The position numbers were made by a program, and so were the translations under genes. From contig NZ_BQME02000001.1 in NCBI RefSeq assembly GCF_022180385.2, positions 2,407,636-2,471,635 on the forward strand: a stretch of 64,000 nucleotides of DNA. Reading direction: 5' to 3'. Shown one piece after another: positions 45,730 through 64,000 of this stretch. This stretch comes from Paenibacillus sp. L3-i20. GTDB lineage: Bacteria > Bacillota > Bacilli > Paenibacillales > Paenibacillaceae. The notes under the pieces were generated by a model. The model saw only the letters and a list, made by a program, of their open reading frames with translations. It ran no database searches and was not told the origin of the DNA. How positions within the stretch are numbered: the first letter of the stretch is position 1; each line of letters starts with the position of its first letter.

Positions 45730-46512
45730 TTATTTTAGTTTTGTTTTGCTCCAAAGACTTGCTGTGTAAGGAGCAGGAGCCCAATTGAATGCATATGCAG
45801 TGTGAGAAGTTACACATCTATAAAATGTACCAGCGTGGAATATAATTTGACCTGATTTGTAAGTGCCGTTAAGTTTCCATGAATCAGTCACATCTAGATT
45901 CAATTGAATGGAAGTTGAGAAGTTATATCCCTCAATGTTCACTTTGTTCCAAAGAGCAGGAGTTTGGTCAGGCGTCCAGTTAGCAACATGAGTTTGGTGT
46001 GCTTGAATGGCGCGGTAAAACTTACCTTTATGTTCAACAACATCATCAACTTTATAGGTATCCCATAATACCCATTTGCTAGCTGAAATTTCTGGACGTA
46101 ATGTGATGTTATTAATTGTTGCAGATTTAGCACCATTTAATGTGCTTTCAATTTTTAAATGTAACGTTTCACCGTTAGCAAGGTCTGTTTTATTCGTTCC
46201 TTTAAGTTTGTAGCGGTTACCTGTTTGCTTAGTAACAACAGCGCCTGCTACTGATTTGATTTGACCAGCAAAGTCAAATTCCAGTACCCAAGATTTAATT
46301 GTGTTTCCATTTGATGAATCTGTGTAGTTATTTTTGATTTGTAGATCGAATTGAGCTGTTTCATACTTTGTGCCAATTCCCCATGCTTTACCTTTTGCAG
46401 ATACTTGCAGCTTGTCCGTCGATTGTGCGCTTGCTGCTGGAACGAGTAAGACCGTTAGAAGAAGTGCAGAAGTAAGTAGTGCAGTTGTTGATTTGAACAA
46501 TTTGTTTAACAT
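45730..46512 (-). CDS. Secreted protein with carbohydrate-binding domains, no catalytic domain
   Basis: A 260-residue exported protein: the signal peptide ends near PAASA-QS (about residue 29). Residues 35-135 look like a CBM2/CBM3-type beta sandwich (IKSWVLEFDFAGQIKSVAG). Two CBM5/12 chitin-binding-like modules follow (about 145-193 and 210-258), each with the aromatic signature: WDTYKVDDVVEHKGKFYRAI...NWTPDQTPALW and YKSGQIIFHAGTFYRCV...NWAPAPYTASLW. No hydrolase or LPMO part is present. It would attach to chitin or cellulose and could help adhesion or act with separate enzymes. AGGAGG precedes the ATG. Given the nearby c-di-GMP operon, control by c-di-GMP is conceivable but not shown. Confidence 0.85.
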   Translation of the reverse strand: MLNKLFKSTTALLTSALLLTVLLVPAASAQSTDKLQVSAKGKAWGIGTKYETAQFDLQIKNNYTDSSNGNTIKSWVLEFDFAGQIKSVAGAVVTKQTGNRYKLKGTNKTDLANGETLHLKIESTLNGAKSATINNITLRPEISASKWVLWDTYKVDDVVEHKGKFYRAIQAHQTHVANWTPDQTPALWNKVNIEGYNFSTSIQLNLDVTDSWKLNGTYKSGQIIFHAGTFYRCVTSHTAYAFNWAPAPYTASLWSKTKLK

Positions 46513-49029: not shown

Positions 49030-49413
49030 ATGTTCAGAGAAATCCACAAATCCAAAATCCATCGTGCAGTTGTTACCGAGGCAAATTTAAACTATGTAGG
49101 TAGTATTACAATTGATGAGGATATATTAGAGGCTTCTAATATATTGGAAAATGAAAAGGTGCAAGTTGTGAATATCAACAACGGTGCTAGACTCGAAACA
49201 TATGCAATAACGGGACCTAGAGGTTCCGGTGTAATTTGTTTGAATGGGGCGGCTGCAAGGCTTGTACAACCTGGGGATCGGGTAATAATTATCTCTTATG
49301 CAATGATGGAAGAGAAGGAAGCAAGAGGGTATAAACCTAATGTCGTCATTATGGACGACAACAATCGTATCGTAACAGATTCCTATCAAGAGCTGCACTC
49401 TACGACGCTTTAA
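49030..49413 (+). CDS. panD: Aspartate 1-decarboxylase
   Basis: A 127-residue, full-length PanD. It decarboxylates L-aspartate to beta-alanine in the cytoplasm using a pyruvoyl group made by self-cleavage. The cleavage site is G24-S25 in NYVGSITID; catalytic and substrate residues lie in [12 protein letters not shown] and the block [31 protein letters not shown] precedes the ATG. Normally panD sits with panB and panC; here it is alone, 29 bases before a giant NRPS gene, the first gene of that operon. It therefore likely supplies beta-alanine to the pathway, or to 4'-phosphopantetheine synthesis for the carrier domains. Confidence 0.96.
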
Positions 49414-49442
49414 CAAAAGAGACGGGAAGTAGGGGAGCTATT

Positions 49443-52400
49443 ATGAACCGAATCCGAAATCTATCGGGAGTACTGTCCGCACGTTTTGAAGGCGAAGCTG
49501 GAATTACGTTTTGTGAAGCGGGTAACGAACGATTTATGTCATATAGCGTGTTGCTGCAAAAGGCGCAAAAGGTGCTTGGCCAATTGCAATATAGAGGTGT
49601 GGGTACTGGGAATTTCGTCATATTACAGACCGAAGATAACGAACGGTTTATTGTGCTTTTCTGGGCTTGCGTATTAGGTGGAATTATTCCTATTCCACTG
49701 ACAGCTGGTCGTACTGATGAAGGCCGGAGGAAGCTGCTGCAGGTTAAGAGTCAACTTGGTGAGCCTTATTTACTCTGTGAGCCGGATATATTGGAATCGA
49801 TATTGACCTATTGCAAGAAGAATGGTGAGGATTCTGCTGCGGAACAGCTCGGGCAGAATATGTTGCCTATTCAAGAACTAATGGAGTGCGATGTTGACCC
49901 TAATTATCCGGGAATCATGTATGATGCCAATGAAGATGATGTTGCATTTATCCAGTTCACTTCAGGTTCTACAGGTGACCCTAAAGGTGTTGTGCTAACA
50001 CATGGAAATTTGCTCTCCAATATGCGGGCGATCATAGAAGGTGCACATTCGACTGAAGCGGATTCGTCCTTAAGCTGGCTGCCGCTTACACATGATATGG
50101 GCTTGATTGGCTTCCACCTGACACCTATTCTTGGAGGAATGAATCAGTGGCAGATGCCGACATCGATGTTTGTCCTTCATCCAATGAAGTGGATGGAAAT
50201 AACAAATCGAAATCGGATTACTTGTCTGTCTTCGCCGAATTTTGGATATGTACACTTTCTTCAGCACTTTAAGCCTGAGGGAGCTTTAAACTGGGATTTG
50301 TCTTGTGTACGCCTAATTTTCAACGGTGCTGAACCAATATCTGCGGTGCATTGTAGAGATTTTACGGGTCAAATGGAACGTTACGGGCTTCGTGAGCAAT
50401 GTATTTTTCCTGTTTATGGACTAGCCGAAGCAAGTTTGGCTGTGACATTCCCTCATGTGGAGGAGCGGCTCCACTCGCTGATTCTGAACAGAAAAGGTGT
50501 CGGGATCGGAAATTCAATACAAACGGCATCAGCCGGCGAATCCGATAGTATTGAAATCGTGGAGCTTGGATTTCCTGTAGCGGAATGCCAATTAAAGATT
50601 TGTAGTGAATCCGGAGTAGAAGTTGCCGATGGAATAGTTGGCATTGTGCATATAAGAGGCAGCAATGTTACGAGTGGTTATTTTAATCGTCCTGATATTA
50701 ATGAGGTCATCATATCACCGGAAGGTTGGTTGAATACGGGTGATCTCGGCTTCATGCAAGAGGGTCGGTTATATGTGACTGGGCGAATGAAGGATGTTAT
50801 TTTCGCTAATGGACAGAACGTGTATCCTCATGACCTTGAAGCTTTAATTAGTGAAATCAAAGGCGCTGAAATTGGTAAGACAGCAGTTTGTGCGGTACAA
50901 GATGAAACGACAAAGCAGGATGAAATTGCTGTATTTGTGCAGTACAGAGGTAAGCTCATTAACTTCTTATCTATCAAGGATAATATCCAGCGGCTGCTCA
51001 ATCGGAAGACAGGTCTTCAAGTGAGCCTTATTGTTCCTGTACGGCGCATTCCGAAGACGACGTCTGGCAAAATTCAACGGTATGCACTTGCGGAAAGTAT
51101 GCGAGAAGGAGAATTTGCCTCCATACTTTCGGAGTTAGAGCAACTTGTCGCTGCTTCTGTATCACAAGTTATGACTGAAAGTCTTGTACCTCCTGATACT
51201 GCCACCGAGCGTGTACTGCACTCAATCTGGCAAGATGTGCTCAAGAAGGAATCGATTGGAATTGATGATCACTTCCTAGAGCTTGGCGGCAATTCATTGC
51301 AAGCTGCATACGTGGCTGCTCGGCTCGAAGACTCATTAGGAGCAGATATCACACTGGGGGATTTATTTAGGCATACGACGATCCGAACGTTGGCAGCTTT
51401 TATTGATAAGTCAATAAGTGAGAATACCTCAATACCACTAAGAAGCCAGCGAATTGAGAAGTTGCCATCTATGGAAAACTACATGGCTTCCTCAGCTCAG
51501 AAGAGATTGTTTGTTTTAGAAGAAATGAATCCCGGGTTGCTAAGTTATCATCTCCCGCATTCCATTCACGTAGAGGGTGAACTCGATCAGGAGAAGTTTG
51601 AGCAAGCTTGGCGGAATCTAATTGAGCGCCACGATGCTCTAAGAACCTCATTTGTGATGACGGAGGATGGAGTCCGGCAAACGATAGCTGAGGAAGTTTC
51701 GTTGCCGATAGGCTACTTTGACGGAAGTCAGTGTTCAGAAGATAAATTGTTGGACAGACAGATCTCGTTTCTAAAACCATTCGACATTGAGAAAGCTCCA
51801 CTCTTCCGAGTGGAGCTGGTTTCATTGGGGCAGGATCGTCACCTTATATTGTTCGATATGCATCATCTCATTACGGACGGCACCTCTATGGGACTACTCA
51901 TAGGTGAATTTGTTGACCTATACGATGGCAAGAAACTTCCACCATTGCCGCTGCAATTCGTTGATATCGTCGGCTGGGAAGAAAGGACGAAACATTCGAA
52001 TCGTATGGAGCGACAACGTTCCTATTGGCTGGAGCAGTTCCAAGATGGTGCGCCGGTAGTGAACATACCTTCCGATTTCTCTAGACCACTTAATGCCAGC
52101 TATCGTGGAGAGATAGAACGATTTGAATTGGATAGAGACCTCACAGCGGAGCTTAAGGAACTCGCTTCACGCACTGGAGGCACTTTATATACGGTTTTAA
52201 TCGGAATCTATTACGCATTAGTGTCCAAATATACAGGTGCTCAGGATGTTGTAATTGGTACTGCAGCAGCACGTAGAACCCGTGCAGAGATGGGACAAAT
52301 TGTCGGACTGTTCGTGAACATGGTTCCCCTCAGGCTACAGGGAAATAACGAGATGCCTTTGTCCGAGTGGATGAGCCAAGTCAGTGCTAAAGTGCTGGAT

Positions 52401-55400
52401 TCGCTTGGAAATCAGGATATTCCGTATGAAGAAATTGTAGAGCTTGCAGGGACGAAGTTGGAATATGGACGCAATCCATTATTCGATACCGTATTTACTT
52501 TGCAAAATATGGAGCTGCCTCATTTCAGAGCGAAGGATGTTACGTTCCGATCTGTACCGATGGATACGGGATCAGCTAAATTCGACATGACGTGGGAGTG
52601 TGTGGAGAAAGAGGACGGAATTGCTGTATCCGTTGAGTTCTCGTTGGACTTGTATAGTTCGTCAACTATACGCCAGCTCGCTCGCCATTATGTAACATTA
52701 GCACGAAATATCGTTCGGTATTCGGAAATGCCGCTTGCTGAGGTTGAATTGCATGATTTAGCAGAGATGGAATTGCTTAAAGAGTTAGGAACGGCTTCTC
52801 GAACGGGATATCCGAGGGATATAACGCTGAGTCAATTATTCGAACAACAAGCCAATCGGACTCCACATCTTCCTGCTGTAGTATTCAACAACGATGTGAT
52901 GACCTATCTGGAGCTAAATGAAGAGGCGAATAGACTGGCGCATTTGCTGCTTCGTCATGGTGTACATCCAAGTTCACGTGTTGCACTTGTGCTGTCACGA
53001 TCGATAGCAATTCCTGTCGCTATCATTGCCACCTTGAAAACAGGATCTGCTTATGTGCCTATCTCTCCTCAATATCCAGCGGAGCGTATTCGCTTCATGC
53101 TGCAGGATAGTGGTGCTGCTGTTCTACTAGCTTGCGGATCAACAGCAGAGATATGTCGTGAGCTCGTTAGCGGAATGTCGCTATCTGTTGAAGTGATTGA
53201 TATGGACGCAAGTCGAGAGGAATGGCTGAAGGAGGATATCTCTAATTTGCCCTCACAGGCAGTTGCTACTGATCCGGCTTATATCATGTACACATCAGGC
53301 TCGACAGGACAGCCAAAAGGGATAATTACAACGCATCGCAATGTAATACGAGTGGCAGTGGATACAGACTACATTCAACTGACAGAAGAAGATGCACTGC
53401 TACAACTTTCTAACTATGCTTTCGATGGTTCTACATTTGATTTGTTCGGTGCGTTGCTAAATGGTGCGAAGCTTGTTATGCCGGGTGAGGTTGACGTGCT
53501 GGATGTTCATGCCTTACTTGAGCTTATTGTTAAACAAGGTGTCACTGTTTTCTTTGCAACGACAGCGCTGTTCAATACATTAGTTGATCATGGTCTTCAG
53601 GAGCTGTCGTCCGTTCGGCATGTGTTATTCGGCGGTGAGCGTGCATCTGTATCCCATGTTAGAACAGCCTTTCTGGCGCTTGGCCCAGGTGTATTATTGC
53701 ATGTTTACGGTCCAACGGAAACAACCGTGTTTGCAACTTGTTATCCTATTATGACACTTGATCGGGATGCCACAGTTATTCCAATCGGCAGGCCAATCGG
53801 ACATTCGGAAGCAATCATTTTGGATGATAAGGGTCGGCTTCTCCCTGTTCTTGTAGGTGGAGAGTTATGTATTGCTGGTGATGGCTTGGCTGCTGGTTAC
53901 TTAAATCTACCACATATGACGTCTGATAAATTCGTTCCACACCCATTCTGGGAAGGTGAGCTTATTTACAAAACAGGCGATCTAGTGCGATGGATGCCGG
54001 ACGGTAACTTAGAGTTTCTTGACCGAAGAGATTCACAAGTGAAGCTGCGCGGTTTCCGAATTGAGCTTGGTGAAATTGAAAGCAAGTTGCTCCAATGCGA
54101 AGGAGTTAGAGAGGCGCTTGTCGCTTTGAAGCATAGGGATAATGATCCGCTGTTATGTGCATACATTGTGGCGGATGGTGAGTTGTCAGCGGATAAACTG
54201 CGAGGAGAATTGGGTAGTAAACTACCGTCATTTATGATACCTGCAACGATCGTCAGGCTGGAGAAGCTTCCGCTAACTTCGAACGGAAAGATAGATAAGA
54301 AAGCGCTACCAGAACCTGATTTCGCCGCATATGGTGCATGGAAGTCTGCGTCTTATGTTGTACCTGCAACTTCTACAGAGGTCAAGATTGCTGCAATTTG
54401 GCAAGAAGTACTGAGGGTAGAGCGGGTCGGAGCTTGCGATCATTTCTTCGAACATGGTGGACATTCGCTTAAAGCTTCAGTGTTAGTATCTGAGCTTTAT
54501 AAGCAATGTGGAGTTAGAATGCCGATTAAGGCAATTTTCGAACGGCCTACAGTAAGAGAACAGGCTGAATGGATGGATAAGGCCGTAACTGAAAGTTATG
54601 AGCCGATTATTCCCATTTCTAATGCCATCTCCTATCCGATTAGCCCAGCTCAGCAGAGAATCTACTTAATTGAACAGTTTGGTGATGTCGGCATTGCGTA
54701 CCATGTTCCTCTTGCTCTGCAATTGACTAAGCCTGTTAGTCATGAAGAGCTTGAGAGAGCACTACTAACCATAATTAATTGCCATGAGCCGCTAAGAACA
54801 TTTATTCATCTCATTGATGGTGAAGTACGTCAAATTGTGCATGAAGAGGTTACCTTTAAGCTCAGTGAAGTAAGTAATGTAAGTGATGTAGCTGATGAGG
54901 AAGCTGACCTAAAGGAGCTCTTTGCAGCTTTTGTTCAGCCGTTGCCTTTACACAAGGCGCCCATGCTCGATGCGCTTCTCGTTAGAAGTGTAGCGGGGAC
55001 GAGCTATCTGTTTCTAAATGTGCATCATATCGCTGCTGATGGTATATCCATGGGACTCATCATAGAGCAGCTAGCCCAAGTTCTAAAGGGGGCCTCAATT
55101 GAGGGGTCATTCGTTCAATATAAGGACTATTCGGCATGGCGTGCTTCGCAAGAAGAAACGAAACGGATGGTTGCTAGCAATCAGTATTGGAGTGAGCAAC
55201 TAGCTGGACCACTCCCATTGTTAAATATGCCGCTTGATTATCCACGGGGAGATCGTCAATCTTTCGGTGGAGAAACGATTACGTTTCCGTTGTCCCCGGC
55301 ACTTACAGCTCGTTTACAAGAGTTGTCGAATACGATGGGACTAAGTTTAAACAGTTTATTATTTGCTTCTTATGCTTTACTTTTGCAGAAGTATTCGGAG

Positions 55401-58400
55401 CAGAATGAACTAGTTATTGGGGCTTTGACGGCGGGAAGAACTCATCCTGATACGGAAAAAATGGTAGGTATGTTCAACAACTTCCTACCTATTCGGCTTA
55501 CCGTTAATGGCGAAACAACCTTTGCACAATTTGCAAAAGAAACACACCATCATTTGCTAAACGCTTACGAGCATCAGGATGCTTCCTTCGACAAGATGTT
55601 GGAAGCGGCACAGCTTTCGTTTGATCCTTCGAGGAATGCTTTATTTGATACGATGCTAATTCTGCACAACCAATTCGAAGATGATTTTGAGGATAAAGGT
55701 AAAGCATGGGGAGTTCAGCCAGTTACAATTGGCCGAAATACAACGTCTAAGCTGGATTTCAAGCTAGACCTGTATCTTCTAGGTGAAAGAGGGCTTCGTT
55801 GCGAACTTGAGTTCAATACCCGTCTGTTCCAAAAGAGCACAATGGAGCAACTGGCGGAGCGATGGCTACATTTGCTAGAGCAAGCAGCGGGCGATCCCGC
55901 TTTGGAATGTGCAACGATAGCGTTGTTAACGAAGCAGGAGGAGTCTCTCATTCTTACGAAATGGAATGAGACTGCACATGACTTTCCGAAGGACCAAACG
56001 ATCCATAGTTGGTTCGAGCTGCAGGCGAGCAAGACACCAGATCGTATTGCTGTGCGAGGAAGTGAAGGGACGCTTACTTACGGTCAGTTCAATGATCGTG
56101 CGAACCAGCTTGCTTTACTCCTTCGGTCTAAGGGAGTTTGCGCAGATACCATCGTACCAATTGCAGCGCAGCGCTCATTTTCGATGATGATCGGTATTAT
56201 GGGCATTTTGAAAGCCGGAGGAGCTTATTTACCGATCGATCCAGAGTTCCCGGAAGATCGTATTCGCTATATTTTGGACGATTGTGGTGCAACTCTATTA
56301 TGTACGGAGCAGAAGTGGCAGAATAACCTTCCGTTCGAAGGTGAACTTATCGTTCTTGATCATTTAGATAAGCATGGAGAAGCAGGGCATTCAGCTAATG
56401 GTTCATTGACGACTGATAATGGCTCGCTACTTGTGCCTGTTGCTGGTCCGAATAATTTAGCTTATGTCATTTATACTTCTGGTTCTACGGGCAAGCCCAA
56501 AGGGGTAATGATCGAGCACGGAGCAGTCATCAATCGCTTGAATTGGATGCAAACAGCGTATCCGATTGACGAGCAGGATGTCATTTTGCAAAAGACACCA
56601 GTTACATTCGATGTATCGGTATGGGAATTGTTCTGGTGGAGCTTCATCGGTGCTTCTGTTTATTTACTAGACCCGCATGGTGAGAAGGAACCGCAAGTCA
56701 TGCTGAGGGCGATGAAGGAGCAAGGTGTAACCGTTATGCACTTCGTTCCATCGATGTTGGGCGTGTTTCTGCAATACGCTGGGGAAGCGGACAATGCGAA
56801 GAGAGCTGCAGCAAACCCAGAGGGTATATTCAGCAGCATGCGTTACATATTTACGAGCGGAGAAGCACTTAAGCCAGCACATGTAACCCAGTTTTATCAA
56901 TTGCTCATCGATGGAGAAGCGGATACAAAGCTTATTAATCTATATGGTCCAACGGAAGCAACAGTTGATGTCAGCTACTATGACTGCGCTCGTTATACGG
57001 AAGGCTCTGTGCCTATCGGATCACCGATTCATAACATAAGACTTTATATTGTGGATGAGAAGCGCAGACTTCAGCCTATTGGCATGACTGGAGAGTTATG
57101 CATTGCTGGAGTAGGTCTAGCAAGAGGTTATTTGAATCGTGAGGAGTTAACGAACGAGAAGTTTGTTGATGATCCTTTCCTACAGGGCGAGCGCATGTAT
57201 TTGACGGGGGATCGCGCAAGATGGCTTCCTGATGGCACAATCGAATATTTGGGGAGACTCGACTATCAAGTTAAGATCAGAGGACTACGTATCGAATGTG
57301 GTGAAATCGAACACGAGTTATTACAGATGGATGCAATTTCTGATGCTGTAGTCGTGGCGGTCAAGGATCGTGCAGGGGATGAAGTATTATGTGCTTACCT
57401 TGCAACCCGGAGTTCATTAGATGAACGAGAACTGAAGGATTCGCTAAAGCGCAAGCTGCCCGAATACATGGTTCCATCGCTGTTCGTCATTATGGAGGCG
57501 CTACCACTTAATGCAAGCGGCAAGACCGATCGCAACCGACTTCCACAGCCGCAGTTTGCTGAATCAGCAAGTGGAAGAGAGCCTAGCAGCGTGACGGAAA
57601 AAGTGCTATCTGAGCTATGGCGAGCTGTGCTTGGCGTTCCGGAGCCAAGTGCTTCCGATCATTTCTTCCAGCTTGGCGGACATTCACTTCGCGCAGCTCA
57701 GCTTGCTGGTGCAGTAGAGCAGAAGTTAGAGATAGCCTTTTCGTTAAAGGATGTTTTTGCTTATCCGGTCCTTGAGGAGATGGCAGCTTTCATCGAAGCG
57801 GCTCCTAGGAAAAGGGCTGTAGTTATTCGAAAAGCGAGTGAGCAAGCTCATTATCCATTGTCACTGGCGCAGAATAGATTGTTTGTCCTGCATCATATGA
57901 ATCCGGAAGGTACGACATATAATCTTCCGCTCGCACTCAGAATAAGCGGAGAGCTAGACGTTGAGCGATTGCAGCTTGCACTGCAAGGACTAGTTGACCG
58001 ACATGAGCCGCTTCGAACAAGTTTCGAATGGCAAAGCGGTGTGCCAGTGCAGCATATACATGAGCATTTTGCCTTGCAGGCAAGCATAAGAAGGACAGAT
58101 CGAATAGATGGAACGGAATGGTTAGAAGGCTTTGTTATTCCATTTGATCTAGGCCAAGCGCCGCTGCTTCGAGCTTCCCTTATGACCGATGGCATTCAGG
58201 ATCATATGCTGCTGCTCGACATGCATCATATCGTATCAGATGGCATATCGATGTCCGTATTGGCTAGCGACTTTATTGCTTTGTACGAAGGAGTAGAGCT
58301 TCGAGCTCTTTCAATTCAATACAAGGATGTTGCTGTATGGCAGCAGGATTGGATGAAGAGTGAAGCACGGAATCGTGAAGAACGCTACTGGAAGGAAGTT

Positions 58401-61400
58401 CTGGGAGGAACGCTGCCACTCCTGAATCTGCCGACTGATAGGCAACGTCCTGCGGAGCATAGCTTTGAGGGTAATAAGCTCATAAGCTCACTTCCTCCAT
58501 CATTGCTGAATAAAGTTGAACGACTTGCGCTTCAAACTGGTCTAACATCCTATCATATATTGCTAGCATGCTACCATGTACTGCTTTATAAGCTGACTGG
58601 ACAAGAGGATATTATCGTTGGCACACCGGTAGGTGGAAGATTCCATCCGAGTACGGAACCGTTAGTAGGGATGTTCGTCAACACGGTTGCTATTCGAAGC
58701 GAGCTCTCTGGGGAGCGAACGTTCCAGCAATTTGCGGAGGAGTTAAAGGGAAATGTGCTAGGTACTCTAGACAATAGCATGCTCCCTTTTGAGCATATTG
58801 TCAGTTCACTCGATGTAACACGCGACCTCAGCCGCAATCCAATTTTCGATACGATGTTTGTTTTGCAAAATATGGAGCCGCCAAAAACAGAAACCGATAA
58901 TTTACGCTTTGAGACGATACAGATGACAAATGCTGTTTCCAAGTTGGACCTTACATTTGAGCTGGCACAGCGCGGTAATGGTATGGATATTACGGTAGAG
59001 TATGCGACAGCACTATTCGATTTTGAAAGTATTGGTCGAATGGTAAATGGATACGTTCGCATAGTTGAGACAGCAGTAGGAAATGCGAATACATTGCTTC
59101 GAGATGTTAACCTGCTGTCTATAGAAGAGGAAACGAGTCAAATCGCAGCATTAAATGATACGACTACTCCTTACCCTAGCAGCATGACGATCGAACGTTA
59201 TTTGGAGGCGCAAGCGGAATGGATACCACATACGGTTGCTGTTCTACATGAATCGGGTGAGATGTCATATGGCGAATTGAATGAGAAAAGCAACCGTCTG
59301 GCTAGAGTGCTTCGAAAGCGCGGGACAGGTTGTGAAGCCATTGTCGCCATTATGATGGAGCGTTCAGTAGAGATGCTCATTGCAATCTATGGTGTGTTGA
59401 AGGCTGGAGCAGCGTACATGCCAATTTCACCTCAGCTTCCAAAAGAGCGCATTTTGTATATGATCGAGGATTCGGGAGCGGAAATCGTTCTAACTAATAG
59501 TTCAGATTCCTTCGGGTTAGGTGCGACCGCTGAGTGGCTAGATGTAATGGGAGCAGTAGATGGTGAGCGGGATGGGACGACAGTGGAGAAGATTCATAAC
59601 TCGCGAAATTTAGCTTATGTACTGTATACATCTGGCTCCACTGGCCAGCCCAAAGGCGTTATGATCGAACATCATTCTGTCGTGAATCGGATAATGTGGA
59701 TGCAGGGCAAATATGTGCTTGATATGCAGGATGTGATTTTGCAAAAAACACCATTCACGTTCGACGTATCAGTCTGGGAGCTGTTTTGGTGGAGTTTCGT
59801 TGGTGCGAGGGTAAGTCTGCTTCCTCCTGGAGGAGAGAGGGACCCAAGCATCATTGCCGCATCAATTGCTCAGCATTCAGTGACAACGATGCATTTTGTC
59901 CCATCGATGCTTCATTTATTTCTAGAGCATCCTAGTTTATTAACGGCAAGGCTGGATAGTTTACGTACAGTTTTTGCAAGTGGAGAAGCATTAACGATTA
60001 ATCAGGCTAAACGTTTCAAGAGCAAGTTAGAAGAACCGTTTGGTGCAAGGCTGGTGAACTTGTACGGACCGACCGAAGCGACGGTTGACGTGTCTTATTA
60101 CGATTGCAACGAGCTCGGGACGATGACAAGTTTACCTATCGGTAAACCTATCGACAACATTTCCTTATACATCATAAATGATGCAATGCGCTTACAGCCG
60201 ATAGGTGTCGCAGGTGAGTTGTGCATCGCTGGTGTAGGTTTGGCGAGAGGGTACTTGGGTCGGCCAGATCTGACAGCGGATCGGTTTGTAGACAATCCGT
60301 TCGAAGCAGGCAGCGTGATGTACCGAACTGGTGATCTAGCGAAATGGCTTCCAGACGGCAACATCGAATATTTGGGTCGTATCGATCATCAGGTGAAATT
60401 GCGAGGTTTCCGTATTGAATGTGGTGAAATCGAACATGCGATCATCGCTCATGAAAGAGTGAAGGAAGCGGTTGTTGTGATGCGCGAGGCAATGAACAGG
60501 GAATCTGCGATGCTGTGTGCATACATCGTTGCTAACGAAGCTGTAACGGTTACCGAGCTGCGCTTGCATCTGACAAAATCTCTTCCCGATTATATGATTC
60601 CTGCTGCTTTTGTGGAGTTAACTGAGATGCCGTTGTCACCTAATGGCAAGGTTGATCGGAAGGCGTTGCCTGCACCAAGCGATACGATGAATACAGGCGT
60701 GCAATACGTAGCAGCATCCAGCGAGACGGAATTGGCAATCGCTGCGATCTGGCGAGAGCTGTTGAACCTCGCAGAAATTGGCATACATCATAACTTTTTT
60801 GATGTCGGTGGGGAATCACTCCTGCTCATCCGAGCCCATCAGCGTCTAGATGAGCTATATCCTGGTGTATTGAAAGTAACGGATCTATTCAACTATCCAA
60901 CAATTTCGAAGCTGGCGGAATATATGGGTTCGAGGACAGATGCATCTCGGACCTGGGCATGGAGCGGGATACCAATGTCTGTCAGCTACTTTCAAGCTGA
61001 ATATACCGCACAACGAATGGGTTCGTTCCAACTTTCACTAGATGGAGATGTGGCAGAAGGTTTAGTAGAAATGGCAGCTGCACAATCAGTTTCGGTTGAA
61101 AATGTAGCATTGGCATTATATGCCTTGAGTTGGAAGCAACAATCCGGAATTAATGATATTCGACTTCCAGTTGCGGGATCTAACGGGAAATTTTCACCGC
61201 TAGTAATCGATTTTGGTGCTGTAAAAGAGTTTGGAGATCTTTTGCGCTCTGCTGCATCAATTTGGGGTGAAAATGATGGCAATGAAATGTACGACTGGCA
61301 GCAAATTAGGCTTCAACGGGATAGTAACACATTGGCGCCGCTTTTTGTGAATAGTGCAAGGTCACAGATGCCTGTTGCTGGTGGGGAATTGTTGCAAGTG

Positions 61401-61595
61401 TTTGATTTTGTCCTGACGTTAACTACGGGAGGGCAATCTGGAACGAAAAGAGACGTTACTGCACTAATTGAATTTAATGCACGTCGCTTGAATAAGGAAA
61501 AAGTAAAGGGCTGGGCGGAAAGTTACGTCAAGCTGATTCGGATGGCTGTTCACCAGTTTCATGAGTCGGCGAAGTCTGGAGTAAGTGGCAAATAG
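49443..61595 (+). CDS. Nonribosomal lipopeptide synthetase, FAAL-T-(C-A-T)x3 with orphan C-like end
   Basis: 4050 residues. Order: fatty acyl-AMP ligase (1-570; TSGSTGDPKG at about 173, LPLTHDMGLIG); T1 with S618; C1 (HHLITDG at 807); A1 (YTSGSTGQPKG at 1283); T2 with S1675; C2 (HHIAADG at 1861); A2 (2344); T3 with S2748; C3 (HHIVSDG at 2928); A3 (3395); T4 with S3792 in GGESL. Aligned by eye to GrsA, pocket residues are A1 DGFFLGVVF (Ile-like), A2 and A3 DVWHFSLVD (Ser). No epimerase, thioesterase or reductase. Residues about 3840-4040 resemble the C-terminal half of a condensation domain without HHxxxDG. Predicted chain: fatty acyl-Ile/Val/Leu-Ser-Ser. AGGGGAG precedes the ATG. Confidence 0.95.
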   Translation: MNRIRNLSGVLSARFEGEAGITFCEAGNERFMSYSVLLQKAQKVLGQLQYRGVGTGNFVILQTEDNERFIVLFWACVLGGIIPIPLTAGRTDEGRRKLLQVKSQLGEPYLLCEPDILESILTYCKKNGEDSAAEQLGQNMLPIQELMECDVDPNYPGIMYDANEDDVAFIQFTSGSTGDPKGVVLTHGNLLSNMRAIIEGAHSTEADSSLSWLPLTHDMGLIGFHLTPILGGMNQWQMPTSMFVLHPMKWMEITNRNRITCLSSPNFGYVHFLQHFKPEGALNWDLSCVRLIFNGAEPISAVHCRDFTGQMERYGLREQCIFPVYGLAEASLAVTFPHVEERLHSLILNRKGVGIGNSIQTASAGESDSIEIVELGFPVAECQLKICSESGVEVADGIVGIVHIRGSNVTSGYFNRPDINEVIISPEGWLNTGDLGFMQEGRLYVTGRMKDVIFANGQNVYPHDLEALISEIKGAEIGKTAVCAVQDETTKQDEIAVFVQYRGKLINFLSIKDNIQRLLNRKTGLQVSLIVPVRRIPKTTSGKIQRYALAESMREGEFASILSELEQLVAASVSQVMTESLVPPDTATERVLHSIWQDVLKKESIGIDDHFLELGGNSLQAAYVAARLEDSLGADITLGDLFRHTTIRTLAAFIDKSISENTSIPLRSQRIEKLPSMENYMASSAQKRLFVLEEMNPGLLSYHLPHSIHVEGELDQEKFEQAWRNLIERHDALRTSFVMTEDGVRQTIAEEVSLPIGYFDGSQCSEDKLLDRQISFLKPFDIEKAPLFRVELVSLGQDRHLILFDMHHLITDGTSMGLLIGEFVDLYDGKKLPPLPLQFVDIVGWEERTKHSNRMERQRSYWLEQFQDGAPVVNIPSDFSRPLNASYRGEIERFELDRDLTAELKELASRTGGTLYTVLIGIYYALVSKYTGAQDVVIGTAAARRTRAEMGQIVGLFVNMVPLRLQGNNEMPLSEWMSQVSAKVLDSLGNQDIPYEEIVELAGTKLEYGRNPLFDTVFTLQNMELPHFRAKDVTFRSVPMDTGSAKFDMTWECVEKEDGIAVSVEFSLDLYSSSTIRQLARHYVTLARNIVRYSEMPLAEVELHDLAEMELLKELGTASRTGYPRDITLSQLFEQQANRTPHLPAVVFNNDVMTYLELNEEANRLAHLLLRHGVHPSSRVALVLSRSIAIPVAIIATLKTGSAYVPISPQYPAERIRFMLQDSGAAVLLACGSTAEICRELVSGMSLSVEVIDMDASREEWLKEDISNLPSQAVATDPAYIMYTSGSTGQPKGIITTHRNVIRVAVDTDYIQLTEEDALLQLSNYAFDGSTFDLFGALLNGAKLVMPGEVDVLDVHALLELIVKQGVTVFFATTALFNTLVDHGLQELSSVRHVLFGGERASVSHVRTAFLALGPGVLLHVYGPTETTVFATCYPIMTLDRDATVIPIGRPIGHSEAIILDDKGRLLPVLVGGELCIAGDGLAAGYLNLPHMTSDKFVPHPFWEGELIYKTGDLVRWMPDGNLEFLDRRDSQVKLRGFRIELGEIESKLLQCEGVREALVALKHRDNDPLLCAYIVADGELSADKLRGELGSKLPSFMIPATIVRLEKLPLTSNGKIDKKALPEPDFAAYGAWKSASYVVPATSTEVKIAAIWQEVLRVERVGACDHFFEHGGHSLKASVLVSELYKQCGVRMPIKAIFERPTVREQAEWMDKAVTESYEPIIPISNAISYPISPAQQRIYLIEQFGDVGIAYHVPLALQLTKPVSHEELERALLTIINCHEPLRTFIHLIDGEVRQIVHEEVTFKLSEVSNVSDVADEEADLKELFAAFVQPLPLHKAPMLDALLVRSVAGTSYLFLNVHHIAADGISMGLIIEQLAQVLKGASIEGSFVQYKDYSAWRASQEETKRMVASNQYWSEQLAGPLPLLNMPLDYPRGDRQSFGGETITFPLSPALTARLQELSNTMGLSLNSLLFASYALLLQKYSEQNELVIGALTAGRTHPDTEKMVGMFNNFLPIRLTVNGETTFAQFAKETHHHLLNAYEHQDASFDKMLEAAQLSFDPSRNALFDTMLILHNQFEDDFEDKGKAWGVQPVTIGRNTTSKLDFKLDLYLLGERGLRCELEFNTRLFQKSTMEQLAERWLHLLEQAAGDPALECATIALLTKQEESLILTKWNETAHDFPKDQTIHSWFELQASKTPDRIAVRGSEGTLTYGQFNDRANQLALLLRSKGVCADTIVPIAAQRSFSMMIGIMGILKAGGAYLPIDPEFPEDRIRYILDDCGATLLCTEQKWQNNLPFEGELIVLDHLDKHGEAGHSANGSLTTDNGSLLVPVAGPNNLAYVIYTSGSTGKPKGVMIEHGAVINRLNWMQTAYPIDEQDVILQKTPVTFDVSVWELFWWSFIGASVYLLDPHGEKEPQVMLRAMKEQGVTVMHFVPSMLGVFLQYAGEADNAKRAAANPEGIFSSMRYIFTSGEALKPAHVTQFYQLLIDGEADTKLINLYGPTEATVDVSYYDCARYTEGSVPIGSPIHNIRLYIVDEKRRLQPIGMTGELCIAGVGLARGYLNREELTNEKFVDDPFLQGERMYLTGDRARWLPDGTIEYLGRLDYQVKIRGLRIECGEIEHELLQMDAISDAVVVAVKDRAGDEVLCAYLATRSSLDERELKDSLKRKLPEYMVPSLFVIMEALPLNASGKTDRNRLPQPQFAESASGREPSSVTEKVLSELWRAVLGVPEPSASDHFFQLGGHSLRAAQLAGAVEQKLEIAFSLKDVFAYPVLEEMAAFIEAAPRKRAVVIRKASEQAHYPLSLAQNRLFVLHHMNPEGTTYNLPLALRISGELDVERLQLALQGLVDRHEPLRTSFEWQSGVPVQHIHEHFALQASIRRTDRIDGTEWLEGFVIPFDLGQAPLLRASLMTDGIQDHMLLLDMHHIVSDGISMSVLASDFIALYEGVELRALSIQYKDVAVWQQDWMKSEARNREERYWKEVLGGTLPLLNLPTDRQRPAEHSFEGNKLISSLPPSLLNKVERLALQTGLTSYHILLACYHVLLYKLTGQEDIIVGTPVGGRFHPSTEPLVGMFVNTVAIRSELSGERTFQQFAEELKGNVLGTLDNSMLPFEHIVSSLDVTRDLSRNPIFDTMFVLQNMEPPKTETDNLRFETIQMTNAVSKLDLTFELAQRGNGMDITVEYATALFDFESIGRMVNGYVRIVETAVGNANTLLRDVNLLSIEEETSQIAALNDTTTPYPSSMTIERYLEAQAEWIPHTVAVLHESGEMSYGELNEKSNRLARVLRKRGTGCEAIVAIMMERSVEMLIAIYGVLKAGAAYMPISPQLPKERILYMIEDSGAEIVLTNSSDSFGLGATAEWLDVMGAVDGERDGTTVEKIHNSRNLAYVLYTSGSTGQPKGVMIEHHSVVNRIMWMQGKYVLDMQDVILQKTPFTFDVSVWELFWWSFVGARVSLLPPGGERDPSIIAASIAQHSVTTMHFVPSMLHLFLEHPSLLTARLDSLRTVFASGEALTINQAKRFKSKLEEPFGARLVNLYGPTEATVDVSYYDCNELGTMTSLPIGKPIDNISLYIINDAMRLQPIGVAGELCIAGVGLARGYLGRPDLTADRFVDNPFEAGSVMYRTGDLAKWLPDGNIEYLGRIDHQVKLRGFRIECGEIEHAIIAHERVKEAVVVMREAMNRESAMLCAYIVANEAVTVTELRLHLTKSLPDYMIPAAFVELTEMPLSPNGKVDRKALPAPSDTMNTGVQYVAASSETELAIAAIWRELLNLAEIGIHHNFFDVGGESLLLIRAHQRLDELYPGVLKVTDLFNYPTISKLAEYMGSRTDASRTWAWSGIPMSVSYFQAEYTAQRMGSFQLSLDGDVAEGLVEMAAAQSVSVENVALALYALSWKQQSGINDIRLPVAGSNGKFSPLVIDFGAVKEFGDLLRSAASIWGENDGNEMYDWQQIRLQRDSNTLAPLFVNSARSQMPVAGGELLQVFDFVLTLTTGGQSGTKRDVTALIEFNARRLNKEKVKGWAESYVKLIRMAVHQFHESAKSGVSGK

Positions 61596-61609
61596 GAGGA
61601 GAATTTAGG

Positions 61610-62482
61610 ATGCAAAGGGGCAGCACGGTGAAAAAAATCTTGTTCATGCTTGGGAATATCGCTATTTATCTCGGTGTCTTTTACGCCTTTCTTTATTTAC
61701 TTCGCTCAACCTATGATTACGAATTTACGGCCAGCTTCGCCAAGTTTCTTGATATTAACCCAGCAATGTTTTTTGCAGTGCTCTTCACGGCTATTGTGCT
61801 CGTTTACATGTTGATGTTCCGGATTAAGCGAAGTCTATGGCCGGAAAATAAACAAACCTTGTTTCAAGCTAGCGGTTTTAAACGAATTGCATTGAAGGAC
61901 GCTTGTCTTATGTTTGCAATGGGTGTTGCTGGTTGTTTATTCAGCATTGGACTTATGGAAATTGATATTATTGCACGGAATTTCCCATCGATTCCGTTTT
62001 TAGTAGAAGACCTTATTCGTGGCGATTCTATTTTTTACGTTATTCTCGGGGCGGGGCTTATTGCCCCGATCTACGAGGAAATATTATTCCGTGGATTAAT
62101 ATTCGGACAATTACGTTCAGTTATGCCAGTGTTTGGGGCACTTATTTTGCAAGCACTGCTCTACGCTTATTTCCAACCGAGCCTTAGCTTGTCGTTTATT
62201 GGCCTCGGTTCAGGAATTATCTACGCCATTTTGTATATTCGAATCGCAACACTCTGGGCGCCAATTATCGTCCAAACGACTGCGATGAGTCTCATCTTTA
62301 TTTTGAAGGATGCTGGTTTCTACGAGGTTCTCAATAAATTGGGTGAGCCTATGCTGTATATCCTTACTGCGATTAGTTTGCTCTTCCTATTAGGGGCAAC
62401 GTGGTTTGTATGGCTTAGAGGAACGAAAGTTGCTGGTCATTCCATTCAAGTAAAGCCGAACACGGCAGAAAAAGGGATATAA
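61610..62482 (+). CDS. CPBP family intramembrane protein, first of three
   Basis: A 290-residue membrane protein with about eight helices, of the CPBP (CAAX protease/bacteriocin-processing, Abi) family. GGAGGAG lies just after the NRPS stop and supports the ATG at 61610. Motif 1 is intact (E156-E157 in IYEEILFRG). The second and third motifs, which normally provide metal-binding His (FxxxH and HxxxN/D), appear as LLYAYF and APIIVQTTAM, lacking both His. It may therefore be inactive as a protease. It could bind, export or protect against the lipopeptide, or help release it. The next gene starts one base after its stop. Confidence 0.85.
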   Translation: MQRGSTVKKILFMLGNIAIYLGVFYAFLYLLRSTYDYEFTASFAKFLDINPAMFFAVLFTAIVLVYMLMFRIKRSLWPENKQTLFQASGFKRIALKDACLMFAMGVAGCLFSIGLMEIDIIARNFPSIPFLVEDLIRGDSIFYVILGAGLIAPIYEEILFRGLIFGQLRSVMPVFGALILQALLYAYFQPSLSLSFIGLGSGIIYAILYIRIATLWAPIIVQTTAMSLIFILKDAGFYEVLNKLGEPMLYILTAISLLFLLGATWFVWLRGTKVAGHSIQVKPNTAEKGI

Positions 62483-62483
62483 G

Positions 62484-63284
62484 ATGAGACGTTGGGGAAT
62501 GGCGTTAGGGCGTATTGCGCTCATTATAGGCATTTATTTCGCTTGGTTTTTTACTGTAAATAAGTTGTTTTTTGATTACATCTATCCACTCAGCACGTGG
62601 TTTCAGCAAAACACGTTAGTTGTAATTATTCTCAACGATATTATCGGACTTCCTCTAATGTATATTGCGTTTAGATTGATCTATAAGCAAAGCCTGTTTA
62701 AAGAAGCTCGATTCCACAGAATGGATAGCAAAGCAGTGTCGATTGCCCTGTTGGTTGGTATTGGAGCCGGGTTATTTACATTCGCTTTTTCACAATTACC
62801 AGTCATTCAATCCGACCAGTATAAATTCCGTGAGTTGTTTGACTACTTGAATAGAGCGGAATGGTACGTATTTCTTGTGTTCTTACTGCTAGGCAATATT
62901 TATAAGGAAACATTGTTTAGAGGCATGCTTCTTAACGAATTTAGAAGGGTACTCCCGCTTGCGGTCGCTATTATCCTTCAAGGTGTTTTGTATGGCGTAT
63001 TGTTTTTCTTCTTGGATATTCCACTTACACTATACGGGTTTCTCGGAGCTGTTATCTTTGCAATATTGTATGTATGGTTTGATTCCATCTGGGCGCCGAT
63101 TGCTGCACAAGTTGCTTGTCAGGGACTTCAATACATCCTTTGGCATCATGGTCCCAAAATAAGCAATGTAGATGTTTTGGGTGTAATTATGGCGATATCT
63201 GCTCTTATTATTGGCTGTGGCCTTTATTGGGCTAATCATCATCGTCGGAAGACACTGCCTCGTCACCAGGGGGTTCAAGCTTGA
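62484..63284 (+). CDS. CPBP family intramembrane protein, second of three
   Basis: A 266-residue paralogue of the preceding protein, same fold with about eight helices. Motif 1 is altered: K141-E142 in IYKETLFRG, so the first catalytic Glu is Lys. The later motifs appear as LQGVLYGVLFF and APIAAQVACQG, without the usual His. By family knowledge it should not be a protease. Stop and start are coupled on both sides (one-base gap upstream, overlap with the next TTG), so all three CPBP proteins should be made in similar amounts and may form a complex. Confidence 0.85.
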   Translation: MRRWGMALGRIALIIGIYFAWFFTVNKLFFDYIYPLSTWFQQNTLVVIILNDIIGLPLMYIAFRLIYKQSLFKEARFHRMDSKAVSIALLVGIGAGLFTFAFSQLPVIQSDQYKFRELFDYLNRAEWYVFLVFLLLGNIYKETLFRGMLLNEFRRVLPLAVAIILQGVLYGVLFFFLDIPLTLYGFLGAVIFAILYVWFDSIWAPIAAQVACQGLQYILWHHGPKISNVDVLGVIMAISALIIGCGLYWANHHRRKTLPRHQGVQA

Positions 63285-64000
63285 AAATAATAATCGTAAT
63301 AGCAAAAGCGCTCCTTTATTTGATCATTTATGCGGGAGTTGTTCTGTTAACAAATGAAGCACTTTATGGGTGGATCACCCATAAAGGGTTTCATGCTTGG
63401 CTTGCGGATAATCCTGCTTCGTTACTCATCGTAGCTAACACAATTGTGTTGGCTCTATTTATTCCACTGCTACGCCTTCAAAAAATTAGCTTCCGTGATC
63501 TAGGGTTTCAACGCCCGAATTCACTAACTGTCAGTGCGGGAGCTGGCATATGGTTAGGTCTTTTCATTGCCGTATTTACACAGTTGCCCTGGATGAAGGA
63601 AGGTTTCCCGGAGATTTCGGGATTAGTGAGCTTTGTAACGGGCGGGGAAAGCTTTCTCGTGTTTGTATTAGGCAGCCTCTTGCTTGGTTCACTATTAGAA
63701 GAATGGTTATTCCGAGGAATGTTGCTTCATGTATTCCGTACACGTTTCAACGTATTGTTGTCGGTACTGTTTCAGGCAATATTGTTCGGAGTTGTACTGA
63801 TGAATGTTACGGTTGGTCTTTTTGCAGCACTTGGAGCTGTCATTTATGGCATTATTCGAGTAACTTCGGGATCATTGTGGTCATCATTAATTGCACATAT
63901 CCTCAGTACAGCTACCTTGTATGTTGTTTCTTCGTTCATCAAAGAGTGGCCATCGGACATGCTGCTCATTCTTACAATTGTTAGTGGGGCTGCAATACTT
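63281..64000 (+). CDS. CPBP family intramembrane protein, third, cut by window edge
   Basis: A TTG at 63281 overlaps the TGA of the preceding gene (TTGA) and follows AGGGGG. The frame stays open for 240 codons to the window end: KIIIVIAKALLYLIIYAGVV, helices, then E140-E141 in LEEWLFRGMLLHVFR. Motif 1 is perfect; motif 3 keeps a His (SLIAHILST) but the motif 2 His is replaced in ILFGVVLM. It is the most family-like of the three. The C-terminus and any later genes of the operon lie beyond the window. Confidence 0.85.
   Translation, partial: MKIIIVIAKALLYLIIYAGVVLLTNEALYGWITHKGFHAWLADNPASLLIVANTIVLALFIPLLRLQKISFRDLGFQRPNSLTVSAGAGIWLGLFIAVFTQLPWMKEGFPEISGLVSFVTGGESFLVFVLGSLLLGSLLEEWLFRGMLLHVFRTRFNVLLSVLFQAILFGVVLMNVTVGLFAALGAVIYGIIRVTSGSLWSSLIAHILSTATLYVVSSFIKEWPSDMLLILTIVSGAAIL

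Follow-up and report, generated by a model that had tools for sequence, protein, structure and literature searches.

An operon of Paenibacillus sp. L3-i20 was analysed that begins with a copy of panD, the gene for L-aspartate 1-decarboxylase, and continues with genes for non-ribosomal peptide synthetases (NRPSs) and three CPBP-type membrane proteins. It starts within a stretch of 64,000 nucleotides (the window; G000:C1:2407636-2471635) of a 5.3 Mb genome held in two contigs. With a probability of roughly 0.62, the operon encodes a hybrid line of NRPS and polyketide synthase (PKS), primed by a fatty acyl-AMP ligase (FAAL), that would make a lipopeptide with a tract of β-alanine supplied by PanD, released by a CtaG-like enzyme and handled by a non-proteolytic device of CPBP proteins.

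Open reading frame (ORF) coordinates and Pfam matches bore out the arrangement described in an earlier note on this DNA, namely panD 29 bases 5′ of a 12-kb NRPS gene (NRPS-A), followed by three coupled CPBP genes. The next gaps are of 14 bases (NRPS-A to CPBP1) and 1 base (CPBP1 to CPBP2), CPBP2 and CPBP3 overlap by 4 bases, and Pfam identified Condensation, AMP-binding and PP-binding domains in the NRPS. The gene order stood, whilst the extent had to be corrected: on the contig read past the window, the operon continues for ~30 kb on the same strand (Table 1). The order panD, NRPS-A, CPBP1, CPBP2, CPBP3 and NRPS-B was found in all eight other genomes of the genus that carry the cluster panD, and is therefore not due to chance.

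A PanD clade linked to NRPS genes

PanD decarboxylates aspartate to β-alanine. The copy in the operon passed the cut-offs of TIGR00223 (180.6 bits against 106) and of the Pfam aspartate decarboxylase family PF02261 (182.1 bits against 25), and contains an intact stretch, YVGSITID, which we take to be the Gly-Ser self-cleavage site. The gene is thus complete, as the earlier note had it, but not lone, since the genome holds a second panD in a panB-panC-panD set (panB and panC named by eye). A cluster-type panD was found in nine of the 51 genomes of the genus, the window's included (84–100 % identity), and the same nine also carry a housekeeping panD at 67–73 % identity. All 15 sampled NRPS-linked panDs formed one clade (98/95) apart from the housekeeping panDs in the tree; position 6 is His in 15/15 of them, compared with Met in 19/19 of the others outside a third class described below.

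The clade also occurs beside other NRPS genes. The panD of G346 and G350 lies at the opposite cluster end, where the NRPS gene that immediately follows it holds a further DIVQMGLVW module. A distinct NRPS operon of G390 (L072/L074, G390:C16) has a panD of this clade at its end (joined position 27841-28293) and one adenylation (A) domain with the code DILQLGMVW, three other A domains having codes that start DLTVT. Paenibacillus lutrae (G065; L096, L100, L101) carries a third panD (G065:C1:288104-288475) directly 5′ of the gene for a 4,306-aa NRPS that holds a DILQLGMVW A domain, with genes for NRPSs of 6,107 and 1,559 aa after it.

The panD of G126 (75 % identity) was rejected as cluster-type because it adjoins panB and panC (named by eye). 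The third class, at 50–57 % identity, was found in G016 (L024), G019 (L025) and G040 (L026), and the stretches read there contain no NRPS; in two genomes a panD of this class adjoins a gene of ~241 aa, and these two neighbours look alike. Three clostridial genomes included in the panD scan had one panD each.

Occurrence of the cluster in other genomes

The genes for the BtrH-like protein, thioesterase, free-standing acyl transferase (AT) and M20 peptidase lie further on in the eight genus relatives, wherever the stretch reaches; the contig of G033 ends inside NRPS-B, and the stretch fetched for G042 ends inside the cluster. The ORF filter misses panD in G021 and G036, where an antisense ORF masks it; its place was taken from the panD search.

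Among 394 genomes of the family, 25 encode a BtrH-like protein scoring >600 bits, and the same 25 have CPBP1 at ≥60 % identity. The cluster panD is present at ≥83 % identity in 24 of these, and the 25th (G294) corresponds in its coordinates to the genome whose panD is split, Paenibacillus sp. DMB20 (L099, G073:C22:145885-146266), in which the gene falls into two frames through sequencing error or decay. A scan of named genomes gave 27 BtrH-like loci, of which 23 are from Paenibacillus (64–90 % identity), including P. antarcticus, P. glacialis, P. solani, P. chitinolyticus, P. lutrae, P. pini, P. tuaregi and P. shirakamiensis. The panD scan took 26 of the 27 loci, L050 being omitted as the same species record as L033. 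Linkage of panD to the NRPS, on which the earlier note had made its proposal depend, held throughout: the cluster panD was found in 23/23 named cluster genomes (22 intact, one split). In 21 of them it precedes the BtrH-like gene by 24.9–31.5 kb (coordinates, by hand); in the two whose BtrH-like gene lies close to the end of a contig, it is on the contig of CPBP1 (matched by coordinates). In L035 and L041, the interval from the BtrH-like gene to the M20 gene showed neither a thioesterase nor a trans-AT gene. A cluster-type panD also occurs in five genomes of a second family.

The predicted assembly line

A domains were located with a motif pattern that may overlook some of them, and their codes, which exclude position 517, were read from printed motif lines and checked in part. 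The N-terminal domain of NRPS-A has sequence relatives in the PDB that include Fatty Acyl-Adenylate Ligase, FadD32, FadD23 and FadD28, and its best family is the NCBIfam fatty acyl-AMP ligase (344.5 bits, below the cut-off of 600). A carrier domain follows, as FAAL-initiated lipopeptide NRPSs require. The FAAL start suggested in the earlier note is thus supported by domain scans and PDB relatives, and its Ile/Ser/Ser units agree with the codes of the three modules in the window, DGFFLGVVF being taken by us as Ile and DVWHFSLVD as Ser. The C-terminal tail of NRPS-A had no significant BLAST match among the full condensation (C) domains compared. This tail and the ends of NRPS-C are pieces of ~220–260 aa, of which the one at the head of NRPS-C bears a weak likeness to the C-terminal part of a C domain.

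The ketosynthase (KS) of NRPS-B carries the motifs DTACSSS, HGTGT and NIGH. Domain searches of residues 1-1800 of NRPS-B revealed no AT, ketoreductase or aminotransferase, and Pfam matched residues 1-800 only to parts of a KS, linkers, PP-binding and, weakly, a thiolase. Iturin-type lines run FAAL, acyl carrier protein, KS and aminotransferase; NRPS-B, in contrast, has no aminotransferase between the KS and the next C domain (residues 1-800). The free-standing AT would load malonate for the lone KS.

The first module after the KS, B1, has the code DVSYLGGVC (position 239 is Ser, Ala or Cys in relatives) and is followed by three modules with the identical code DIVQMGLVW (DIVQ modules). The number of DIVQ modules differs among relatives, with three in G042, two in G034 and one in five others; the DIVQ-type module of G369 has Leu at position 299. 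The three modules of the window's cluster are 62–64 % identical to each other, compared with 38–40 % to B1, the two of G034 are mutual nearest relatives (100/100), and all 14 sampled cluster DIVQ domains formed one clade (99/100) separate from other DIxQ domains. These identities and groupings indicate tandem duplication. The tree held 31 of 109 extracted A domains (25 flagged 'Q' and the six others of the window's genome); its bootstrap was not settled, and the placement of G390, G065 and two controls was not fixed. The product would be fatty acyl-Ile-Ser-Ser-[malonyl C2]-X-(beta-Ala)n-(Y), with X from B1, n = 3 in the window's genome and n = 1, 2 or 3 in relatives.

Co-variation of PanD with the DIVQ modules

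A DIVQ module is present in 8/8 genus clusters with a readable NRPS-B (the window's included) and in 22 of the 23 named loci, some of which are the same genomes as in the genus set; the 23rd locus is cut by a contig end. DIVQ-type modules also occur in G365, G369, G346 and G350. G346 and G350 were rejected as examples of the module without panD, their panD lying at the far end, beyond the first 40 kb read. Four sister clusters (G016, G096, G101 and G008) possess a FAAL-NRPS, CPBPs, KS and B1; none of these has the cluster panD, and no DIVQ module was found in the genes read. The last three genomes have one panD each, and G016 has its second copy (57 % identity) elsewhere. As these four share FAAL, KS, carriers and NRPS, panD tracks the module and not the carrier load. 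Conserved linkage together with this co-variation upholds the earlier suggestion that PanD belongs with the pathway. B1, with the general code DV[SAC]YLGG[VI]C, was rejected as the β-alanine module because clusters with B1 only occur without the cluster panD. A DIxQ module was also not seen in ten fused-CPBP loci, a weak negative with 20 kb read per locus. The sister cluster of G008 (L136/L137) is shorter, consisting of FAAL-NRPS, CPBP1, CPBP2, a KS-B1 gene, thioesterase and phosphopantetheinyl transferase (PPTase), with no panD within it.

PanD is probably a pathway-owned paralogue of the housekeeping enzyme that converts aspartate to β-alanine for the tandem DIVQMGLVW modules. The likely β-alanine modules sit in NRPS-B, the next NRPS gene, and not in the window's NRPS, so that the earlier note's reading is not supported as worded on this point. 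Besides co-occurrence with panD, the assignment draws on aurodox, in which the β-alanine module of AurB has the nearby code DTLQLGVIWK (PMC9361827).

Several points weigh against β-alanine loading. For kasichelin, the β-alanine module gave a weak prediction of Ile (PMC12305651), and pleosporacin is formed without its decarboxylase when the cell's own pool suffices (PMC12177691), so that PanD need not be essential. The present cluster is known from genes alone, and the association of panD with the module comes from few independent lineages. A control set of 38 of the 51 genus genomes (omitting the nine with the cluster, G016, G019, G040 and G044) was read at 30 loci, from which 21 distinct A domains were recovered, some domains being missed. 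At least nine of the A domains in these genomes, which lack an NRPS-linked panD, are coded DILQ[LM]GMVW, and the panD-linked domains of G390 and G065 share their code with some of these controls, so that no pocket residue marks β-alanine. Val239 was rejected as a marker since, although present in 14/14 sampled cluster domains, it is replaced by Leu in G390 and G065, as in the controls, and the 'PSR' motif beside Gln278 was rejected because it also occurs in eight of nine control domains. The code DIVQMGLVW is, moreover, near glycine-type codes, and DIxQxGxVW is, we assume, a glycine-type code as well.

The DIVQ modules might accordingly load glycine, with PanD serving the supply of coenzyme A (pantothenate for phosphopantetheine arms, malonyl-CoA and fatty acids) in heavy production. 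The codes and their near-identical counterparts in genomes without an NRPS-linked panD fit this explanation, as does the cluster-borne PPTase of the window's cluster and some relatives, but it leaves the four sister clusters unaccounted for, which have FAAL, KS, carrier and NRPS and neither the cluster panD nor the module, and no panB or panC was seen within the cluster; we consider it unlikely. It is highly improbable that the second PanD is a self-resistance copy, insensitive to a product that inhibits PanD or pantothenate synthesis: a housekeeping gene duplicated inside a biosynthetic operon and a clade-specific His for Met at position 6 (15/15 against 0/19) would suit it, but the same clade adjoins two other NRPSs, G016, G096 and G101 share the FAAL-Ile-Ser-Ser-KS core without the cluster panD, and PanD covaries with a module that fits β-alanine.

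A candidate release enzyme

CcbD (celesticetin) and BtrH (butirosin) are carrier-dependent cysteine acyltransferases. In a fold comparison of its predicted structure, the BtrH-like protein found CtaG as the best solved-structure match, with a papain-like domain and a C-terminal helical domain carrying Cys-His-Asp, as in BtrH, CcbD and CtaG. The enzyme was named from this fold match, the Pfam match being sub-threshold, and it would release the finished chain from the carrier protein onto an amine.

Other results speak against this role. The score for BtrH_N (PF14399), 19.2 bits, is under the cut-off of 29.7, identity to CtaG is 12–14 %, and no PDB sequence match was obtained. No recognisable BtrH-like protein was present in the stretches read of G346, G350 and G008, and BtrH-like genes without an NRPS alongside were found in the stretches read of G019 (L062/L105, 61 % identity), G338 (L070, 40 %) and G333 (L071, 40 %).

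More distant BtrH/CtaG-like proteins (26–29 %) are encoded in Eubacteriaceae/Lachnospiraceae (L051, L052 and L053) beside acyl-ligase-like and decarboxylase-like genes; these loci are perhaps small thiotemplated pathways.

Loss of catalytic residues from the CPBP proteins

All three CPBP proteins have the Rce1-like membrane fold (Pfam scores of 44.6, 46.3 and 50.5 bits against a cut-off of 22.4). The motifs of CPBP/Rce1 proteases are, as we assume, EExxxR, FxxxH and HxxxN/D. CPBP1 retains EExxxR, and both its catalytic His residues are replaced by Gln; CPBP2 has KExxxR for EExxxR, Phe for the His of motif 2 and Gln for that of motif 3; CPBP3 retains EExxxR and the His of motif 3 and has lost that of motif 2. 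Every CPBP paralogue lacks at least one catalytic His in 16/16 clusters, and CPBP2 also lacks the first Glu. The residue table used the best tblastn match per row, so that paralogues may be mixed up in distant clusters, although the residue patterns were consistent. The earlier note's description of CPBP proteins as intramembrane proteases or related folds is not supported as worded, these proteins not being intact proteases.

The trio, with a CPBP1:CPBP2 pair at its core, would instead handle the product as a non-proteolytic device in the membrane, for self-protection or presentation. SpdC of the staphylococcal SagB-SpdC complex, at 14 % identity, is the partner of a cell-wall hydrolase and is not known to be linked to an NRPS. 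A role as exporter or flippase of the lipopeptide seems rather unlikely: in the window's cluster, a scan of genes from panD up to the regulators gave no known transporter family, which would suit such a role, but the clusters of G016, G096 and G101 carry an MFS-exporter-like gene (label by eye) beside M20, and in G346 an ABC transporter gene lies immediately 5′ of NRPS-A, in both cases in addition to the CPBPs. It is quite improbable, given the lost residues, that the trio acts as functional intramembrane proteases, whether in maturing or degrading the product or in processing a leader protein. Databases label the relatives found here simply as CPBP or CAAX proteases.

A broader proposal, which we put forward tentatively, is that the dead CPBP1:CPBP2 heterodimer might be the hallmark of an undescribed class of FAAL-NRPS/KS lipopeptide lines in Paenibacillus, Cohnella and perhaps Brevibacillus, and a new membrane device for immunity, flipping or surface display. 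PanD, the exporter and the release enzyme would be swappable accessories, and one lineage would have gained a β-alanine tract of variable length by tandem duplication of a PanD-fed module.

Comparison with known systems

NRPS clusters with a dedicated aspartate decarboxylase are already known. In kirromycin biosynthesis the cluster-borne KirD supplies β-alanine to KirB (PMC5818483). The kirromycin and aurodox clusters of Streptomyces resemble the present one in a cluster-borne aspartate decarboxylase, a trans-acting AT and a β-alanine module with a code near DIVQMGLVW (PMC5818483, PMC9361827), whereas their products are long polyketides with one β-alanine and a pyridone end, and the available text names no FAAL, CPBP or CtaG-like enzyme; the cluster described here has up to three tandem modules in a predicted lipopeptide. 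The fungal pleosporacin/destruxin type shares an NRPS, lipo-initiation by an acyl-AMP ligase (PleB) and a dedicated aspartate decarboxylase (PleC; PMC12177691), but that enzyme has 519 aa and is homologous to DtxS4, compared with the 127-aa PanD, a single NRPS makes a cyclic lipodepsipeptide, and neither KS nor CPBP is named in the part available. Closthioamide of Ruminiclostridium, with its poly-β-alanine backbone, offers parallels in the peptidyl transferase CtaG, to which the release enzyme is matched by fold, in a tri-β-alanine on a carrier and in a cluster decarboxylase, CtaF (PMC6772006); there, however, β-alanine loading is predicted to proceed via an ATP-grasp enzyme and not A domains, the products are thioamides, and the available part names no FAAL-NRPS.

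Paenilipoheptin is likewise a Paenibacillus lipopeptide of a hybrid NRPS/trans-AT PKS, but identity with it was rejected since its predicted order, Ser-Dab-Trp-Val-Phe-Tyr-Glu, differs from the codes found here (PMC11959601). Madurastatin (PMC10951976) and kribbellichelin (PMC9962454) clusters also have their own aspartate decarboxylase. Syrilipamide (PMC12171316) has a β-alanine A domain whose code was not seen in the part available, and it was not used as support; nor were solanimycin (PMC10204066) and bolagladin (PMC7756342). No description of the cluster was found in the open-access literature, A-domain code strings included (subscription papers, MIBiG and supplements lay outside this scope), and to this extent the earlier note's view that the system is probably undescribed is supported. 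The novelty lies in the combination of genes, in the PanD-linked modules with their tract of variable length and in the conserved pair of dead CPBP proteins.

Features of the operon

The genes and domains are listed in Table 1. Upstream of the operon, on the opposite strand, the window encodes a 260-aa protein with a CBM_5_12 carbohydrate-binding module (46512 to 45730; window 45730-46512, −).

Table 1. Genes and domains of the operon (C, condensation; A, adenylation; T, carrier; ext., extended window coordinates)
Feature	Position	Strand	Basis
panD, NRPS-linked L-aspartate 1-decarboxylase, 127 aa	49030..49413	+	ORF, Pfam, TIGR00223
NRPS-A, 4,050 aa, FAAL-T-(C-A-T)x3 and C-terminal tail	49443..61595	+	ORF, Pfam
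FAAL starter domain of NRPS-A	49443..51170	+	PDB sequence relatives, family profile
A domain 1, code DGFFLGVVF	52839..54302 (approximate bounds)	+	printed motifs
A domain 2, code DVWHFSLVD	55980..57524 (approximate bounds)	+	printed motifs
A domain 3, code DVWHFSLVD	59130..60647 (approximate bounds)	+	printed motifs
C-terminal tail of NRPS-A	60903..61592	+	BLAST
CPBP1, Rce1/SpdC-like membrane protein	61610..62482	+	Pfam, residue alignment
CPBP2	62484..63284	+	Pfam, residue alignment
CPBP3, TTG start	63281..64000, cut by window end (end 64078 in extended contig)	+	Pfam
NRPS-B: KS, carrier, four C-A-T modules, terminal C	64094-80695 (ext.)	+	
BtrH-like protein, 323 aa	80801-81772 (ext.)	+	
Type II thioesterase	81807-82535 (ext.)	+	
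NRPS-C: A-T with flanking pieces	82551-85775 (ext.)	+	
Free-standing AT	85775-87049 (ext.)	+	
M20 peptidase	87082-88419 (ext.)	+	
PPTase	88469-89179 (ext.)	+	
Hybrid sensor kinase and BTAD response regulator	up to 93791 (ext.)	+	

Implications

The cluster points to a family of probably unexamined Paenibacillus lipopeptides, present in 25 of the 394 family genomes, with a predicted structure that can be tested. The findings suggest that a glycine-type A-domain code may need to be read as β-alanine where a panD of this clade adjoins. The dead CPBP proteins, in turn, point to a conserved role for such proteins in lipopeptide producers.

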